Part shown: piece after piece, positions 13,706 through 28,524 of the stretch | Numbering within the stretch: position 1 is the stretch's first letter | Layout of the letters: each line of letters opens with the position of its first letter | Assembly (NCBI GenBank): GCA_009702835.1 | Contig: WLHF01000002.1 | Span: forward strand, 1-37,455 | Reading direction: 5' to 3' | From: Actinomycetota bacterium | Lineage (GTDB): Bacteria > Actinomycetota > Actinomycetes > Nanopelagicales > Nanopelagicaceae | Length of the DNA stretch: 37,455 bases | The notes under the pieces: generated by a model | Databases searched by the model: none | What the model was told of the DNA's origin: nothing | The model's input: only the letters and a program-made list of their open reading frames with translations | Translations under genes and position numbers: made by a program

Positions 13706-15072
13706 ATATCCTTCTCGCTATCTTCAGCGGGACGCTCTTAAGCGGTGCCTTCGCTCCGTTATCGGTGTGGTGGCTGGCACCGCTCGCTATAGGAGTTCAC
13801 ATCTTTTGCATCAAGCAATCAACTCGTCCTTTTCTTAACTCATTTCTATTCGCCCTTGTCTTTAACGCGATAGCACTGCACTGGACAAGTACTTTTGTAG
13901 GTGCAATTCCTTGGGCGATTCTTGCGATAGGACAGGCCGTTCTCTTTATGCCCCTTGGCTTTGCGAATAAATATGGAGTAGCCCTATACCCAGTTATCTT
14001 CCTGCTTCTTGAGCAGGTCCGTGGCAACTTTCCATTTAGTGGATTTGGTTGGATGCGTATTGCATATTCGCAGGCCGATGCTCCTTATAGCTCTATAGCA
14101 GCGATTGGGGGAGCCGTTGGATTGAGTGCATTGGTTTTATGTATTTCATTAACGCTTTTTGCGTTACTCAACGCACGATTACATGTGTTTCCGCTACTTC
14201 CACTTATTCTGCTGCTAATTCCAATCCATACCAATAGCATCGGTACAGTTAAAGTACTTATGGTGCAAGGTGATGTACCTGCATTAGGGTTAGATTTTAA
14301 TTCACGGGCAAAGGCCGTGTTTCTCAACCACGTAAATGAGACAAAAAAAGCATTAGCCAAAGATGGGAATGTCGACTTTATTCTCTGGCCGGAGAACGCA
14401 GTTGATGTGGATCCATTTACCAACAATGATGTGAAGGAAACGCTAAATTCTTTTCCTGCGCCTTTGATCATCGGGGCTGTGTCCCGCGAAGGAGAAAATC
14501 TTCAGAATGTGTCGATCATTTGGGAAAAAACATCACAAGAGATCTATGTTAAGCAGCATCTGACACCCTTTGGTGAGTACATTCCATTGCGCTCACTCGC
14601 ATCGAAAATCTCACCTTTAGCTGCCTCTGTTGAGGATTTCACGCCGGGAAGTTCGTCAAAGATATTTGCGATAGGTTCGGCAAAAATCGCACCAATTATC
14701 TGCTTCGAACTTATCGATGATTCGATTTTAAGCACTGCGGCACGAGCATCAAATCTCATAGTTGTTCAGACTAATAGTGCGACATTTGGATTCTCGCCAG
14801 AGAGCGCCCAGCAGTTAGAGATTTCACGGATCAGAGCTATTGAACATGGCAGAAATCTTCTCTCTGTATCCACCACGGGAATCTCTGCAGTTATTGATTC
14901 AACGGGTGAAATTACCTCCAGAACGCAGATTCACGTACCGGCCCACATATTCGCATCGGTGCAGTTACTGGATAGCCAAAGCCCAAGGGACAGAGCCGGT
15001 CATTGGGCCACAGTGGCAGCCTGTATCTGGTTATTAATAGTGGGTAGAGCAGGTCGAAAGGTTGTAACCTAA
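13699..15072 (+). CDS. lnt: apolipoprotein N-acyltransferase
   Basis: Multi-TM N-terminus, then nitrilase-like domain: VDFILWPENAVDV, VKQHLTPFGEYIPLRS, APIICFELI, RAIEHGRNLLSVSTTGISAVID. TTG start overlapping upstream stop. No Ppm1 domain. Confidence 0.92.
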   Translation: MVNILLAIFSGTLLSGAFAPLSVWWLAPLAIGVHIFCIKQSTRPFLNSFLFALVFNAIALHWTSTFVGAIPWAILAIGQAVLFMPLGFANKYGVALYPVIFLLLEQVRGNFPFSGFGWMRIAYSQADAPYSSIAAIGGAVGLSALVLCISLTLFALLNARLHVFPLLPLILLLIPIHTNSIGTVKVLMVQGDVPALGLDFNSRAKAVFLNHVNETKKALAKDGNVDFILWPENAVDVDPFTNNDVKETLNSFPAPLIIGAVSREGENLQNVSIIWEKTSQEIYVKQHLTPFGEYIPLRSLASKISPLAASVEDFTPGSSSKIFAIGSAKIAPIICFELIDDSILSTAARASNLIVVQTNSATFGFSPESAQQLEISRIRAIEHGRNLLSVSTTGISAVIDSTGEITSRTQIHVPAHIFASVQLLDSQSPRDRAGHWATVAACIWLLIVGRAGRKVVT

Positions 15073-15098
15073 CGCCGATAATGTACATTATGTAAAGT
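15071..15098 (+). other. dif: dif site (XerC/XerD chromosome dimer resolution site), replication terminus
   Basis: AACGCCGATAA-TGTACA-TTATGTAAAGT: 11-6-11 architecture; core ATAATGTACATTAT (15078-15091) is a perfect 14-bp palindrome; matches the actinobacterial dif pattern recalled from the literature (TTCGCCGATAATGTACATTATGTCAA) and the B. subtilis XerD-side arm TTATGTAAACT. Located exactly where gene orientation flips. Confidence 0.93.
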
Positions 15099-21333: not shown

Positions 21334-23289
21334 TTAGTCGCGCTCTTTTACACGGATCGCGACTTGAACAGGTGTACCAGGAAAGCCAAACTCTTCGCGC
21401 AGACGCCGCTCAATGAAACGACGGTAGGAGGCTTCGATCCAGCCACTTGAAAAGACCACAAACTTGGGAGGGGCGATCCCTGCCTGGGTGGCGTAATAGA
21501 TCTTGGGCTGCTTGCCGCCACGAACTGGTGGTGGGGTCGCACCGATCAGCGCTCCGAGGAATGAGTTGAGTTTGGCAGTCGGGACACGTCGCTCCCAGCT
21601 ATCCAAGGCTGTGCGAATCGCTGGAGCTAAACGATCTCGGTGCCAACCTGTCTTTGCCGCAACATTGACGCGCTGTGCCCATTCAACTTGATCTAAATGT
21701 CTATCTATTTCGCGATCCAGTTGATCACGTCGATCCTCATCAACTAAATCCCATTTGTTCATCACAATGACCATCGCTTTTCCTGCCTCTTCTACCATGG
21801 TTATGACACGAAGATCTTGTTCAGTGATTGGTTCAGATGCATCTAAAACTACAACCGCGACTTCGCAACGCTCAAGTGCGCTTTGAGTACGCAAGGATGC
21901 GTAGTAATCAGTACCCGATGCCTGATTAGCGCGTTTCTTTAGCCCTGCAGTGTCGATAAATCGCCAGGTCGACCCCGCAAACTCTATTAACTCATCAACT
22001 GGATCGCGAGTTGTACCCGCTACATCATCAACGATTGAACGGTTCTCTCCAGCTAGAGCATTGAGGAGAGAAGACTTACCTACATTTGGACGACCGACTA
22101 AAGCAATCTTGCGATATCCATCTTGAGTTTGGGCTCCCCCAACTTCAGGAAGCTCTGTAACTATGTGATCGAGTAGATCACCACTTCCACGCCCGTGTAA
22201 AGCGGAAACAAAATATGGCTCGCCAAGTCCAAGACTCCATAATCCATGAGCTTCAGACTCCTCGCGCTCACCATCAACCTTGTTACCAATTAAAATTAAT
22301 GGCTTCTTTGCTTTGCGCAGTCGTTGAACGAGAATGTCATCCTCATCTAAGGCACCTACTTGGGCATCGACAACAAAGGCTAAAACATCGGCCTCTTCCA
22401 TTGCTATCTCGGCTCCGGCGCTGACTTGAATTGAAATCCCATCGGGTTTTGCTTCCCACCCGCCTGTATCCATAACTATAAAGCGACGACCGCCCCATTC
22501 GCATTCATACTGCACGCGATCGCGAGTTACACCTGGAGTATCTTCAACAATCGCCTCGCGTCGACCGATAAAGCGGTTAATTAACGTTGATTTACCAACA
22601 TTTGGGCGACCCAGTATTGCAACAATGGGCAGACCGAGTAATGAACGCTCGCGTAGTAACTCCCAAATTCGCTCTATTGTTTCATCTAAATCTAAATATG
22701 TTGAGTCCACTTCAACTGCATCGAGAGCCATGGCAAGTGGAGAAACTTCGCGTGAGGAATCAATAGCATCGCGCGTATCCAAAGAGGTACGAACATCAAT
22801 AGTTTTATCTTCGGTTTCATTCTCACGACGCACTGCGCGAGCATCTAAATCCGCTGTCAGATAAATCTTTAAAGCAGCATCTGGTGCTACAACTGTGGAA
22901 ATATCCCGACCCTCGACTACGATACCTTTTTCAGCGCGATCGATAATCGAACGTTGAATACTCAGGAGCTCATGTCGAATCGCAGGCATAGCACTGATGC
23001 GACTGACATTCTCAGTTACTGATGCGCCACGTATTGCATGCGTAATCTGCGTATCTCCTGCAAAAATATTAGGATCATGAGGATCAGAGACAAAACGGAT
23101 GGGCATAGATTTCATCGCAGAGATGATTTCTTGTGCAGTTTCTGCTTTAGTTTCAAGTGCAATCCACGTTACTGCACGATACAAGGCTCCAGTATCTAAA
23201 TAATTCCAACCTGCGCGAATAGCAATTGCTCGCGATGTGCTTGATTTACCTGCACCACTGGGGCCATCTATTGCTACGACTATGCCCAT
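21334..23289 (-). CDS. cmk-der: bifunctional cytidylate kinase / GTPase Der
   Basis: N-terminal Cmk ([35 protein letters not shown]) fused in one frame to Der ([36 protein letters not shown]; second G domain [33 protein letters not shown]). Confidence 0.95.
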
Positions 23290-23304: not shown

Positions 23305-24357
23305 CTAATTAAGAATCGGATGAACATTCCATCCGATCGCAGATAAATGATCCGACAACAACTGCGCATCCGCTGATGAGAGCGCCAACATTATGAGTGC
23401 GCTTAACTGACCTGGTGAGTGCTCAATAGTTAAGTCTTCAACGTTTACAGAGATAGATTTACACTCATTAAAGATTGCAGCTAGCTGGCCAGGTTTGTCA
23501 TCGATAACAATTGGAAGATAGGCGTAGGCGCGTGCTTTGCCTCCATGTTTACCCGGAATACGCGCTCTACCTATACCTGCGCGATCAATAAACTGCGCAA
23601 TGGCCGATTTGTCATCAAGCTCTGCTATGAGCTCACCTAAGGCCTCATGCATTTTCCTTGCAAGCGGAGCGATTTCGGCTCTATTGGAGTAAATAATCTC
23701 ACTCCAGAGCCCCGGATCAGAGGCGGCAATCCTGGTCGTATCGCGAAGCCCAGTTCCTGCAAGCTCTAGCCAGTTGCTGGGAGTTGAGTTCAGGCTTTGA
23801 GCTAGGAGACTGGCCGTTATCTGCGGAAGATGAGAGATAGCTGCCACGGCGCGATCATGTTCATCGGCTGGCAGTTTAATCACGCTTGCTCCAAGTAGTT
23901 CAATAAGCTCGTTAACAAGGGCGATGCTCTCCTTCGAGCAGGAGGCATCGGGGGTAATCACCCAACTGCGTGTTGCAAAGAGATCGCCCCTAGCAGCGGC
24001 GGCTCCCCCTATCTCACGGCCTGCCATGGGATGAGTGGGAACGAAGCGCTCCAATGGAAGCGATGATGCTTTAACATAAAGTAAAGGTTCATTTTTTACA
24101 CTACCAACATCCATAAACGTCGAGTTTGGGTTTAATGCAAACTCTGCTTCGATGACCTGGGGTATGGCATGTGAGGGCAGTGCAAAGATTACTAACTCGG
24201 GAGAAGCGGTTTTTTCTCGACCAGTCAGATCATTGGCTAAGCGCTCTGCCGCCGGATCACTATCGACCATCTGACAGCGAATGCCATGAGCGCATAGGCC
24301 TAGGGCGATCGATGTTCCTATGAGCCCTGATCCAACGATGCGTACCTGGGTGAGCAT
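23305..24357 (-). CDS. tyrA: prephenate dehydrogenase
   Basis: VRIVGSGLIGTSIALGL (Rossmann), THPMAGREIGGAAAARGDLF, SHLPQITASLLA, C-terminal ACT-like DKPGQLAAIFNEC. Confidence 0.93.
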   Translation of the reverse strand: MLTQVRIVGSGLIGTSIALGLCAHGIRCQMVDSDPAAERLANDLTGREKTASPELVIFALPSHAIPQVIEAEFALNPNSTFMDVGSVKNEPLLYVKASSLPLERFVPTHPMAGREIGGAAAARGDLFATRSWVITPDASCSKESIALVNELIELLGASVIKLPADEHDRAVAAISHLPQITASLLAQSLNSTPSNWLELAGTGLRDTTRIAASDPGLWSEIIYSNRAEIAPLARKMHEALGELIAELDDKSAIAQFIDRAGIGRARIPGKHGGKARAYAYLPIVIDDKPGQLAAIFNECKSISVNVEDLTIEHSPGQLSALIMLALSSADAQLLSDHLSAIGWNVHPILN

Positions 24358-24713
24358 TATTGAGCGATATCCCGGCGCAGGGATTGAGCGCCATGGAGAT
24401 AGATATGCGAGGCCTCAACTGCGCTGTTCTGGCAGTGAACCATCACGCGAATCACCTTATCGAGGGCTCCCGGAACATCTACCTCAACAGCCCCAATCAG
24501 TGGCACTGCCTCAAAGCCGATCTCACGAGCGGCAGCTGCTGGGAAAGCGGCCGTTAGATCTGGAGTAGATGTAAAGAAAACGGAGATAACCTGATCGGGC
24601 GTTAAAGAGTTAGAGCTCATAATCGCACTCATGAGCTCTTTGACGCCATCGCCGATAGCCTCTGGCGTATTTGAGCGCACCTGTATCGCTCCGCGTATAG
24701 CTCTAATAACCAT
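24357..24713 (-). CDS. aroH: chorismate mutase (AroH type)
   Basis: VIRAIRGAIQVRSNTPEAIGDGVKELMSAIMSSNSLTPDQVISVFFTSTPDLTAAFPAAAAREIGF; stop/start TAATG overlap with tyrA. Confidence 0.94.
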   Translation of the reverse strand: MVIRAIRGAIQVRSNTPEAIGDGVKELMSAIMSSNSLTPDQVISVFFTSTPDLTAAFPAAAAREIGFEAVPLIGAVEVDVPGALDKVIRVMVHCQNSAVEASHIYLHGAQSLRRDIAQ

Positions 24714-24782
24714 GGGATAAGGGTACCTTTCCTACCCATTTTTCGTGGGCAATTGAAACTCTGCTAAGAGTTTTGTTTATAT

Positions 24783-24969
24783 ATCGATTAAACCCTTTTA
24801 CTACTTTTCACTCGATCGCTATACAGAAAATACATGCAAGCGCAAAAGAGTACATTATCGATTTATCGGTATTCAGAACGCTATGCAAGCGTAAATTTTA
24901 TCGATAAATTTACTTTTCAAACCTACAATGTCGATAAAACGTTATATTGATAATACGGCTAATATCGAT
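24783..24969. repeat. AT-rich intergenic cluster of ATCGAT/TCGATAA motifs and an ATGCAAGCG direct repeat
   Basis: ATCGAT at 24783, 24857, 24900, 24964; near-variants TCGAT 24812, TCGATAA 24931, ATCGG 24865, TTGATAA 24947; ATGCAAGCG[C/T]AAA at 24834 and 24883; near-palindrome TAAATTTTATCGATAAATTTA at 24892-24912. Confidence 0.7.
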
Positions 24970-24983
24970 TTAACATAAAACCG

Positions 24984-25688
24984 TTAAATCCCTAAAACGT
25001 TACGTAGATTTGTTAACTCTCCGCTATTGAGATCTCGCCATCTCCCCTCAGGCGTATCGCCCAGAGAGATAGGTCCAAACTTTGTACGTATCAATCGCAG
25101 GACATCGACCTCAACGGCCTCCATCAAACGACGGATTATGTGATACCTGCCCTCGTGGATCGTAACTTCAATCCACGTAGATGAGAGCTCCTTAAAGCTT
25201 AAAACCCTGCCCATACCATCTTCGAGTTCGACGCCCTTGAGAAGAGCCTTATCAATGCCGGGTGGGAGTTTTCCATCGTATTCAATAATGTATGTCTTTT
25301 CCAGACCAAATGACGGGTGCGTAGCCCTGAAAGTTAAATCACCATCATTTGTCAGAAGAATGAGTCCCTCTGAGTCCTTATCTAGACGTCCGACATGGAA
25401 TAATCTCTCCCTGCGCAGGTCGATAAAATCACTCAATGAGGGGCGGCCATCAGGGTCGTACATGGTAGACAAAACGCCCTTAGGTTTATGAAGTGCAAGA
25501 TAACTCTTAGTCATAGAACGCTTAATTGTCTCACCATCAACTGCTACTTCAGTCTTATCTGGGTCGAATTTTGCCCCCATCTCGCGAATCGCTAGCCCAT
25601 CGACTGTGACTCTTCCAGAGGCTATGAGTTCATCTGCACCGCGACGACTAGTTATACCTGCATCTGCGATGATCTTATTAAGGCGCAT
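24984..25688 (-). CDS. rluB: pseudouridine synthase (RluB/RsuA family)
   Basis: S4 domain MRLNKIIADAGITSRRGADELIASGRVTVDG, LFHVGRLDKDSEGLILLTNDGDLTFRATHPSFGLEKTY, EGRYHIIRRLMEAV. Confidence 0.94.
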   Translation of the reverse strand: MRLNKIIADAGITSRRGADELIASGRVTVDGLAIREMGAKFDPDKTEVAVDGETIKRSMTKSYLALHKPKGVLSTMYDPDGRPSLSDFIDLRRERLFHVGRLDKDSEGLILLTNDGDLTFRATHPSFGLEKTYIIEYDGKLPPGIDKALLKGVELEDGMGRVLSFKELSSTWIEVTIHEGRYHIIRRLMEAVEVDVLRLIRTKFGPISLGDTPEGRWRDLNSGELTNLRNVLGI

Positions 25689-25736
25689 ATCGCCCATGGC
25701 TGTCTCCCGACTGTCAGGGAGAGTCTAACTGAAGCT

Positions 25737-26288
25737 TTACTCGGTAAGCGAATCCAAAATATCATCGAGAGCCTCGAGATTGGGTAGATACGGCGCGAGA
25801 GCTGGTAGATCCTCAAGTGAGTTCAGCCCTAACCTCTCTAAAAAATAGCTCGTTGTCATATACAAGATCGCTCCGGTCTCGTGCTCAAGTCCTGACTCCT
25901 CAACCAGGCCACGGGTGATAAGCGTTTTCATTACCGCCTCTACGTTCACCCCACGGATAGCAGAGACCCGTGCCCGGGAAACGGGCTGGCGGTAGGCCAC
26001 TACCGAGAGTGTCTCAAGGGCGGCCTGGGTAAGGCGCGACTGCTGGCCATCGAGGACAAACTTCTCCACAACGCTAGATAGATCGGGGTGGCTATAGAAG
26101 CGCCATCCCCCAGCGATCTTCTTGAGGGCGAAGCCTCGATCCTCATAACTACTGGCTAACCTAGCCAGGGCGGCATCGATCTCATCGACAGTACGCTCTA
26201 AAACCTGGGCCAGGGTTATCTCAGTAACCGGCTCATCCACGACCATTAAAATCGCCTCGATTGAACGCTCAACCTCTACATTAGACAT
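25737..26288 (-). CDS. scpB: SMC-Scp complex subunit ScpB
   Basis: SIEAILMVVDEPVTEITLAQVL; AGGWRFYSHPDLSSVVEKFVLDGQQSRLTQAALETLSVVAYRQPVSRARVSAIRGVNVEAVMKTLITRGLVEE. Confidence 0.95.
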   Translation of the reverse strand: MSNVEVERSIEAILMVVDEPVTEITLAQVLERTVDEIDAALARLASSYEDRGFALKKIAGGWRFYSHPDLSSVVEKFVLDGQQSRLTQAALETLSVVAYRQPVSRARVSAIRGVNVEAVMKTLITRGLVEESGLEHETGAILYMTTSYFLERLGLNSLEDLPALAPYLPNLEALDDILDSLTE

Positions 26289-27153
26289 TATCGCTACTTT
26301 CTTCTACCTGGTCTTCAAGGATTACTGGAATATCGAACTCGTCACTGACCTCAACCTCGCCATCGAGTGAGCCTGTCCATGAGATCTGAAGCTCGCCTAG
26401 AGCGATCACCTGATTAAAGCGTAGAACTCCTTGGCGGTAGAGATCGAGCAGAGCTAAAAAACGGGCCACGATTACTAGGGTCGTATCGGCATCGGCTATG
26501 AGGTTTCTAAAGGAGAGTGAGGTCGACCTACGTAAAGCCTCTACTACGCGCTTAGACTCCTCCATAACGCTTACTAGGGGCAGGTGTAGATGCTCGACAC
26601 TGACCACCGGAGAGCTTTTGGGGGTCAAAACACGCTCAGCGATAGCGGCAAAGCGCGCCGGGCCCACACCTATCAAGACCTCAGGGAGTAGAGCACTCAG
26701 CGAGGCCTCTAAGGCGACCACACGGGCAAAGGATTTATCAGATAGTGCGATCCGATCGGCAAAGGTCGCGGCGATCTCCTTGAAGGCGCGATACTGTAAA
26801 AGCCGTGCAAAGAGGATGTCTCTGGCCTCAAGAAGTGCTAGATCCTCCTCATCGTCGACCTCTCCACTGGGAAGAAGGCGCGCCGCCTTCAAATCCAAGA
26901 GGGTAGCCGCTACGACTAAGAACTCGGTAGCTTGATCCAGACGCCATCCCTGCCCGCTCTGTTCTAGGGAGCGGATGAATGAGATGAACTCATCGGTGAC
27001 AAGGCTTAGAGATATCTCAGTGATATCCATCTTGTGGCGAGAGATGAGCTGTAATAGAAGATCAAAGGGGCCATCGAAGTTTTCGAGATGGACTGAGAAG
27101 GCGCCACTACTAGCGGCGTTAACATCCCTAGACTCCTCCATCGATAAATCCAT
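26281..27153 (-). CDS. scpA: segregation and condensation protein ScpA
   Basis: FSVHLENFDGPFDLLLQLISRHKMDITEISLSLVTDEFISFI; C-terminal FLALLDLYRQGVLRFNQ; 8-nt overlap with scpB. Confidence 0.95.
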   Translation of the reverse strand: MDLSMEESRDVNAASSGAFSVHLENFDGPFDLLLQLISRHKMDITEISLSLVTDEFISFIRSLEQSGQGWRLDQATEFLVVAATLLDLKAARLLPSGEVDDEEDLALLEARDILFARLLQYRAFKEIAATFADRIALSDKSFARVVALEASLSALLPEVLIGVGPARFAAIAERVLTPKSSPVVSVEHLHLPLVSVMEESKRVVEALRRSTSLSFRNLIADADTTLVIVARFLALLDLYRQGVLRFNQVIALGELQISWTGSLDGEVEVSDEFDIPVILEDQVEESSDNV

Positions 27154-27232: not shown

Positions 27233-28117
27233 TTGAGCGCTAAATCGACAATTCGGGAAGAGATATCCACCACCTCTACGCTCCTTGGCAAGAAGGCTCA
27301 AAGCTTTCCCATCCCTGCAGCGATTACCGATCACGGCAACGCCAAAGTCGTTGCGATATTTAATCAAAAGGGTGGCGTAGGAAAGACAACTACGACTATC
27401 AACTTAGGTGCCTCCCTTGCCGAACTTGGACGTCGAGTCCTGCTCGTCGACTTTGACCCACAGGGTGGACTCTCTCTTGGCCTTGGAGTTAACGCTCATG
27501 CCCTGCCACTGGAGCAGACCGTGTACTACGCATTGATGACGCCTACTGCATCCGTTGAAACAATTATATTAAAATCTCTTGTTCCGGGTTTAGATTTTCT
27601 TCCCGCTAACCGCGATTTAGGAACTGCGGAAACGACCCTAGGCGCTGAAATCGGTGGTCAACAGTATTTAAAACGTGCACTCACATCACTACGCGATTAC
27701 TACGATGTTATTTTGATCGACTGTCAACCAACTATGGGCCAGTTAACTATTAACGCACTTGTTGCAGCAGATGAGGTTATTGTCCCGTTGCAGTGTGAGT
27801 ACTTCGCTCTGCATGGATTCATTGAGTTAAAAGGCAATCTAGATAAGGTAAAGAATTTTCTGAATCCAAAGCTAAAACTAATCGGAATATTAGCGACTAT
27901 GTACGATAAGAAGACCTCTCACAACCGTCAAGTCCTTGAGCGCATACTTGAACAGTTCCCTGCCGATGTCTTTGAAACAATTATCGCAAAAACTATTCGC
28001 TTTCCTGAAACTACTGTTGTCGGTGAACCGATAACAACCTATGCCTCATCATCTGATGGCGCAGCCTCATACCGGCGTTTAGCCCGTGAACTTATCGCCC
28101 GAGGAGGCGCCCAATGA
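27233..28117 (+). CDS. parA: ParA family ATPase (Soj-like, Rv1708-like)
   Basis: KVVAIFNQKGGVGKTTTTINLGASLAELGRRVLLVDFDPQGGLSLGLG (deviant Walker A), YDVILIDCQPTMGQLTINAL. TTG start with AAAGAGG upstream. Confidence 0.93.
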   Translation: MSAKSTIREEISTTSTLLGKKAQSFPIPAAITDHGNAKVVAIFNQKGGVGKTTTTINLGASLAELGRRVLLVDFDPQGGLSLGLGVNAHALPLEQTVYYALMTPTASVETIILKSLVPGLDFLPANRDLGTAETTLGAEIGGQQYLKRALTSLRDYYDVILIDCQPTMGQLTINALVAADEVIVPLQCEYFALHGFIELKGNLDKVKNFLNPKLKLIGILATMYDKKTSHNRQVLERILEQFPADVFETIIAKTIRFPETTVVGEPITTYASSSDGAASYRRLARELIARGGAQ

Positions 28118-28524
28118 CCCGCAGAGCCAATCTTCCAGGTGCCGATGAGCTATTTCGTTCAACTGCCCCAGCACTTTCTTCGGTGCCAGCGGCACAAGAT
28201 GCCATAGCACCTCTTGTGCCTCCTTCGATCGCAACACCTAAAGCACCATCGGTTAAAAAAGGTGTGCGCTCGATTGCACGCCGCCGTGTTAGAACTGTTG
28301 ATCACTCTCCATCGGGTCGCGAACGCCACGATGAAAAAATCACTGTCTACTTATCTCCCGATGAGTTATTTGATTTAGATCAAGCACGTTTGTTGTTGCG
28401 CGGAGATTTGGGATTAGCTGCCGATCGTGGACGTATCGTGCGCGAATCCATTGCTGTCATCATCGCCGACCTTGAAGCAAAGGGTGATCAGAGTATTTTA
28501 GCCCGTCGATTACGTGGACTTTAA
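28114..28524 (+). CDS. small basic protein with probable C-terminal ribbon-helix-helix DNA-binding region, coupled to parA
   Basis: ATGA overlap with parA; basic linker KKGVRSIARRRVRTV followed by DEKITVYLSPDELFDLDQARLLLRGDLGLAADRGRIVRESIAVIIADLEAKG, which resembles beta-strand-helix-helix (RHH) organisation. Confidence 0.65.
   Translation: MTRRANLPGADELFRSTAPALSSVPAAQDAIAPLVPPSIATPKAPSVKKGVRSIARRRVRTVDHSPSGRERHDEKITVYLSPDELFDLDQARLLLRGDLGLAADRGRIVRESIAVIIADLEAKGDQSILARRLRGL

Follow-up and report, generated by a model that had tools for sequence, protein, structure and literature searches.

The question raised by this locus is why an AT-rich gap of 270 bp (24714 to 24983, unstranded) is kept between two neighbouring genes that both lie on the minus strand, and what would bind it. 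The window, that is, the whole stretch of 37,455 nucleotides analysed here, places upstream of the gap a gene of the 23S rRNA pseudouridine synthase family (24984 to 25697, minus strand), which we take to be rluB from family knowledge and from an earlier sequence-only reading, and downstream of it aroH, a chorismate mutase gene assigned through its orthologues (24357 to 24713, minus strand). Orthologues of the two border genes bracketed the gap in all relatives read. The window is a contig of a MAG of the genus Candidatus Planktophila, to which the closest named relative of its aroH also belongs; 135 genomes of this genus were available for comparison. The sequence-only reading had described a gap with strongly lowered GC content, four exact ATCGAT motifs, a near-palindrome and a spaced direct repeat. 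GC content was indeed 34% against approximately 48% in the window, the four ATCGAT copies were located at 24783, 24857, 24900 and 24964, and the near-palindrome at 24892-24912 was recovered as TAAATTTTATCGATAAATTTA. The direct repeat ATGCAAGCG[C/T]AAA was also present, at 24834 and 24883 with a spacing of 49, yet it was not conserved in relatives, unlike the TATCGATA units, which were the conserved elements of the gap.

Across the whole window ATCGAT occurred 44 times, compared with 16.8 in shuffled sequences, an over-representation that apparently arises through coding sequence; four copies in the gap are therefore, taken alone, only moderately unusual. The doubt left by this frequency was removed by conservation among relatives. 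In 104 orthologous Planktophila gaps (256-286 bp, GC content approximately 27-39%), ATCGAT was found 235 times against 23.5 expected, which rejects a chance origin of the motifs; the lack of conservation that the sequence-only reading had held to count against its own proposal was thus not found. Sites close to ATCGAT averaged 6.5 per gap vs. 2.6, and pairs of such sites separated by exactly 8 bp were counted 108 times vs. 2.9 in shuffles (24 vs. 2.5 for pairs at 16 bp). A general richness in ATCGAT, through ATC-GAT codons, accounts for isolated copies but not for the 8-bp pairing or the cluster.

The genus alignment resolved five blocks of one repeat unit, the typical unit consisting of two half-sites 8 bp apart, the second being a nearly perfect ATCGAT. 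Site A (24960 to 24972, core ATCGAT at 24964-24969) formed an aligned column block of moderate conservation, and site B (24927 to 24954) has its GTCGAT core at 24930 and a further half-site, ATTGAT, reaching 24952; its two motif-matrix scores in the window were 20.4 and 15.3, and its half-site columns are separated by 8 bp. Site C (24897 to 24913), TTTATCGATAAATTTAC, had the most conserved core, with TCGA at 95-98% in the genus and a matrix score of 18.2. Site D (24854 to 24870), with the tandem half-sites ATCGAT/ATCGGT at a spacing of 8 bp, gave the best matrix score of the window (21.4; columns at 92-97%), while site E, the one nearest aroH (24780 to 24796, core ATCGAT at 24783-24788), was a conserved block scoring 14.2. 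All five are unstranded; the cores of sites C and D exceeded 90% in the alignment, and the top four matches of the matrix scan of the window all fell inside the gap. A short GC-richer element, often acGCTca, was also conserved in the genus between sites C and D (24870-24895 in the window).

The same organization extended beyond the genus. In 14 further genera of the order 28 gaps of 237-331 bp were read, where RluB identity fell as low as 42%. The sites were still present; 26 of these gaps carried at least two RTCGAY motifs, nearly all of them above shuffles. The rluB-aroH gap was shifted towards AT in a further six families of the class, whose genomes are GC-rich, and RTCGAY was enriched in five of the six (shuffle p < 0.1); family f32 had a single site. 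The closed genome of a relative, G006, was scanned with a 17-bp motif matrix from which the target species had been left out; the scan took in 1.19 of 1.33 Mb (90%), all but 400-500 kb and 1260-1300 kb. Here the gap stood out with five sites and a summed score of 82.8, the next best place being a single site of 17.3, so that the comparable ATCGAT density elsewhere envisaged by the sequence-only reading was not observed. A tandem-pattern search of the whole genome returned five matches, two of them in this gap, and no other place with two close copies.

The gap could in principle be explained by expression of aroH. A likely -10 element, TACCCT (24720 to 24725, minus strand), lies 6 nt before the ATG within the conserved pattern GGTAcccTTa.cccATG, and GGTACC was found 44 times vs. 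1.9 expected in the genus; judging from these patterns, the aroH mRNA is probably leaderless and transcribed from TACCCT (24714-24730, minus strand). The core promoter appears to comprise only the last 35 bp or so before aroH. Confined to the end next to aroH, a plain promoter does not explain the gap, and the earlier view that the gap is larger than aroH would need was right. A hidden small gene was likewise rejected: only short overlapping ORFs of 26-44 aa were found, and the conserved pattern was one of repeated palindromes, not of codons. It is very improbable that the gap encodes a small RNA or a structured leader. The window sequence did fold slightly better than shuffles (z -2.2), as expected for a single sequence with palindromic repeats, but there was no Rfam match, the consensus fold energy over 26 diverse gaps was 0.0, conservation was confined to the repeated palindromic DNA units, and several of these units lay outside any stable ORF or stem.

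The genes around the gap point to a binder. In 20 outgroup loci a single conserved cluster was found, with small variations, in the order ald-xerD-parA-RHH-scpA-scpB-rluB-aroH-tyrA-cmk/der. In the window the last of these is represented by a Cmk-Der fusion, a single 651-aa ORF joining cytidylate-kinase-like and Der-GTPase-like proteins (21334-23289, minus strand). Two condensin subunit genes of the conserved cluster, presumably scpB and scpA from family knowledge (25737 to 27153, minus strand), lie between the array and a gene for a ParA-like ATPase (27233 to 28117, plus strand; AAA_31, E 3.7e-53). The AAA_31 domain started at residue 38 and no HTH family was recovered in the Pfam scan, which corresponds to a Walker-type ParA without an N-terminal HTH. 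This gene belongs to the conserved cluster and is the syntenic counterpart of PldP, SCO1772 and Rv1708; its orthology to PldP/ParA2/Rv1708 is likely, judging from synteny and from the genome layout of those organisms. PldP/ParA2/Rv1708 has been called an orphan ParA without a ParB partner, and PldP of C. glutamicum shows septal localisation and a division phenotype (PMC3989709, PMC4255298, PMC7022226).

Overlapping parA by 4 bp is the gene of the proposed array-binding protein (28114 to 28524, plus strand), a predicted ribbon-helix-helix (RHH) protein with a conserved SLPGADELFR N-terminus, a disordered linker and a predicted RHH C-terminus. All 17 genera of the order carry it (248 of 296 genomes), and of 122 genera drawn from the class 46 have it. 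At every locus read it adjoined parA. Searches of Pfam, NCBIfam and PHROG were negative, no PDB sequence match was meaningful, and the protein has no family name. Two parts were invariant: a SLPGADELFR-type motif at the N-terminus and, at the C-terminus, a KITVYxS strand followed by two helices. The structure model showed a strand-helix-helix pattern with confident helices at 82-99 and 105-126; residues 1-70, which contain the conserved SLPGADELFR and RRR, were of low confidence. Foldseek against the PDB gave weak matches, the best relevant one being to ParB of plasmid pCXC100, a centromere-binding RHH protein (E 3.1, probability 0.35), and an alignment with CopG was equalled by 1 of 60 shuffles. 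We regard the RHH fold as likely. No plasmid match was found for the ParA-RHH module, and a plasmid origin was rejected on finding no related plasmid gene.

In order to evaluate the link between protein and array, their distribution was compared outside the order: the array was present in 8 of 18 gaps from genomes with the RHH gene and in 0 of 19 without it (p 0.001, Fisher, shared ancestry ignored). These 19 RHH-less genomes, from 14 families, had gaps of 5-232 bp with 0-1 RTCGAY and no array. The neighbourhood of the parA orthologue, read in 17 of them, contained no RHH gene, and scpA usually came straight after parA; some of these lineages (families f15 and f7; L367, L368, L379) had 690-980 bp between parA and scpA. 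In one genome of the order (G236) the array is present although no RHH match was obtained; the contig begins 746 bases ahead of rluB, so that the RHH gene lies off the contig. Conversely, four RHH-positive families (f13, f14, f16, f20; L273, L275-L279, L283, L284, L286) showed no array in the rluB-aroH gap, and no relocated array within the 19-kb neighbourhood, so that in these families this array is not strictly required by the RHH protein. Extra genes were found inside the rluB-aroH gap in f16 and f20.

A second array-like site, AGCGCTAAATCGACAAT, covers the first codons of parA (27236 to 27252, plus strand). It scored 15.7; beyond the gap no site of the window did better, and one inside cmk-der did equally well. 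We propose it as an autoregulation site; the motif over these codons took the form AACGCTAAATCGACATT and close variants. The Lys-Ser-Thr at the parA start was encoded with TCG-ACA in 38/40 sequences and TCG-ACT in 2/40, while in the rest of parA TCG made up 14% of Ser codons and ACA 26% of Thr codons. An AT-flanked RTCGAY was present at the parA start in 40/40 members of the order, in 14/20 RHH-positive outgroups and in 0/17 RHH-less lineages (p 6e-6, Fisher, shared ancestry ignored). Such a site is consistent with self-regulation of the operon by the RHH protein, and type Ib binders and RHH partition proteins also act as repressors of their own operon (PMC5016525).

Two alternatives bear on these observations. 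The RHH protein could bind the array as a multi-site operator controlling aroH-tyrA as well as its own operon, with no part in partition. Wherever the array occurs it lies upstream of aroH, and the additional site at the parA start, together with the repressor activity of RHH partition proteins (PMC5016525), would suit such a role. We nevertheless consider it unlikely: four of the five sites lie 125-250 bp upstream of what seems to be the aroH core promoter, the aroH operons of RHH-less lineages manage without an array, no second comparable cluster was present elsewhere in the scanned genome (G006), and the neighbours are parA, scpAB and xerD. The other alternative holds that a different DNA-binding protein, such as a nucleoid protein or another regulator, occupies the array and that the link to the RHH gene is a by-product of shared ancestry and neighbourhood. 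Array and RHH gene are in fact inherited together in one cluster, but the three parts vanish together in 14 families and the array motif recurs at the parA start, down to synonymous codon positions; this explanation seems distinctly improbable.

The position of the gap on the chromosome was also constant. Measured from dnaA, the gap lay at 0.466-0.533 of the genome, opposite dnaA, in every one of the 17 closed genomes, which represent three genera. In the window a dif-like site, AACGCCGATAATGTACATTATGTAAAGT (15071 to 15098, plus strand), called by its resemblance to the dif consensus, coincides with the GC-skew switch, the skew changing sign within the window. It is 9.6 kb from the array, and a dif site within the gap itself was accordingly rejected. 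In the closed genome G006 a dif-like sequence, AACGCCGATAAGTTACATTATGTTAAGT, was located at 658137, within the 655-660 kb bin where the cumulative skew is highest; the array is at 668.0 kb. Distances from the array to the dif-like sequence were thus 9.6-9.9 kb (window and G006), and the skew switch and dif-like positions in the two genomes place the array about 10 kb from dif. Bacterial chromosome segregation is known to start from the origin. In all 17 closed genomes the canonical ParB was a separate single gene beside oriC, with the array at the opposite chromosome pole; the terminus array does not follow the HTH-type ParB with parS next to oriC that marks canonical chromosomal ParABS.

Such a position brings to mind MatP of E. 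coli, an RHH protein acting at the terminus, whose matS sites are scattered over a large domain. The gap might be a terminus-organising site of this kind. The RHH protein would then compact or tether the terminus and perhaps pass it on to ScpAB, XerD or the divisome, ParA having a minor or separate part. The terminus position, the RHH-like binder, the linkage to scpAB and xerD, and the occurrence of PldP at septa in C. glutamicum (PMC3989709) would agree with it. Set against this are the single dense array in place of scattered sites, and the tight pairing of the RHH gene with parA, which argues for ParA as a direct partner; we hold this reading to be rather unlikely.

The explanation we favour, with a probability of about 0.58, is that the gap is a centromere-like array for the RHH protein encoded 3 kb away, after the ParA-like ATPase, the whole forming a chromosomal, type-Ib-like ParA-RHH partition module at the terminus. 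It draws on the conservation, the spacing, the uniqueness in the scanned genome, the position and the co-occurrence of the three parts, from which we infer a segregation module in which the RHH protein occupies the array and ParA acts on the resulting complex. Among the options of the sequence-only reading (operator array, nucleoid-protein or centromere-like site, small RNA, or site for a terminus-binding protein, with the RHH protein named as one to test), a centromere-like, terminus-located array with the RHH protein as its likely binder has gained support, while a small RNA is disfavoured by Rfam and by the fold. Dimers of the RHH protein would bind 8-bp half-sites side by side (TATCGATA; RTCGAY in the wider class), and about five binding places in a fixed layout of approximately 270 bp would yield one nucleoprotein complex 10 kb from dif. 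The ParA-like ATPase would act on this complex, and the RHH protein at the site over the first parA codons would limit its own operon. These common freshwater bacteria may therefore pull or hold the chromosome terminus by means of a second, overlooked partition system. Whether many Actinomycetes carry a complete second chromosomal partition system on the terminus (PldP/ParA2, the unnamed RHH partner and a terminus array, next to ScpAB/XerD and beside the oriC ParABS) is a more tentative matter, which we would put somewhat below an even chance. Actinobacteria are not known to have Min or nucleoid-occlusion systems, and a module of this kind would link the position of the terminus to division in them. 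A single protein, one DNA fragment of 270 bp and one deletion would suffice to put the partition idea to a direct test.

Several known systems share features with this locus. The operators of MetJ (met boxes) are tandem 8-bp palindromic half-sites, a geometry alike to that of the array, while sequence, function and neighbours differ. MatP-matS is alike in having an RHH protein (here predicted) at the terminus and, as with matS-like restriction, the only strong cluster of the G006 scan was at the terminus; it differs from the present locus, which has a single dense array, a ParA partner and no visible sequence kinship, the RHH protein having no Pfam or NCBIfam match, the MatP family included. 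Archaeal SegAB also combines a chromosomal ParA with a site-specific RHH binder (here predicted) and sites near the genes, but the SegB motif is TCTAGA-S-TCTAGA, with approximately 45 sites over the chromosome (PMC12284271), as opposed to one dense terminus array. In architecture the locus resembles the type Ib plasmid systems (ParFGH of TP228, delta-omega of pSM19035 and ParAB of pCXC100), in which a Walker-type ParA adjoins a small protein with a flexible N-terminus and an RHH C-terminus (both only predicted here), together with a repeat array with AT-rich spacer DNA and an operon-start site suggesting self-repression (PMC5016525). In type Ib partners the flexible tail carries an arginine that stimulates ParA; the counterpart here would be the low-confidence residues 1-70. 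The direct or inverted repeats with AT-rich spacers of type Ib centromeres were found in the gap array as well. Here, in contrast, the module is chromosomal and vertically inherited in a core gene cluster, with no related plasmid gene found, and the array lies 2.3 kb from parA, beside aroH and near the replication terminus. In the literature searched, which did not extend to subscription journals and preprints, neither the RHH partner nor the terminus array was described. Finally, PldP/ParA2/Rv1708 of Corynebacterium, Streptomyces and Mycobacterium is an ATPase encoded in the same ald-xerD-parA-scpAB-rluB cluster and a likely orthologue. It has been described as an orphan (PMC3989709, PMC4255298), whereas a conserved partner gene and a site, both absent from other lineages, are proposed here; if this is true, the orphan PldP/ParA2 ATPase gains a partner, a site and a cargo.
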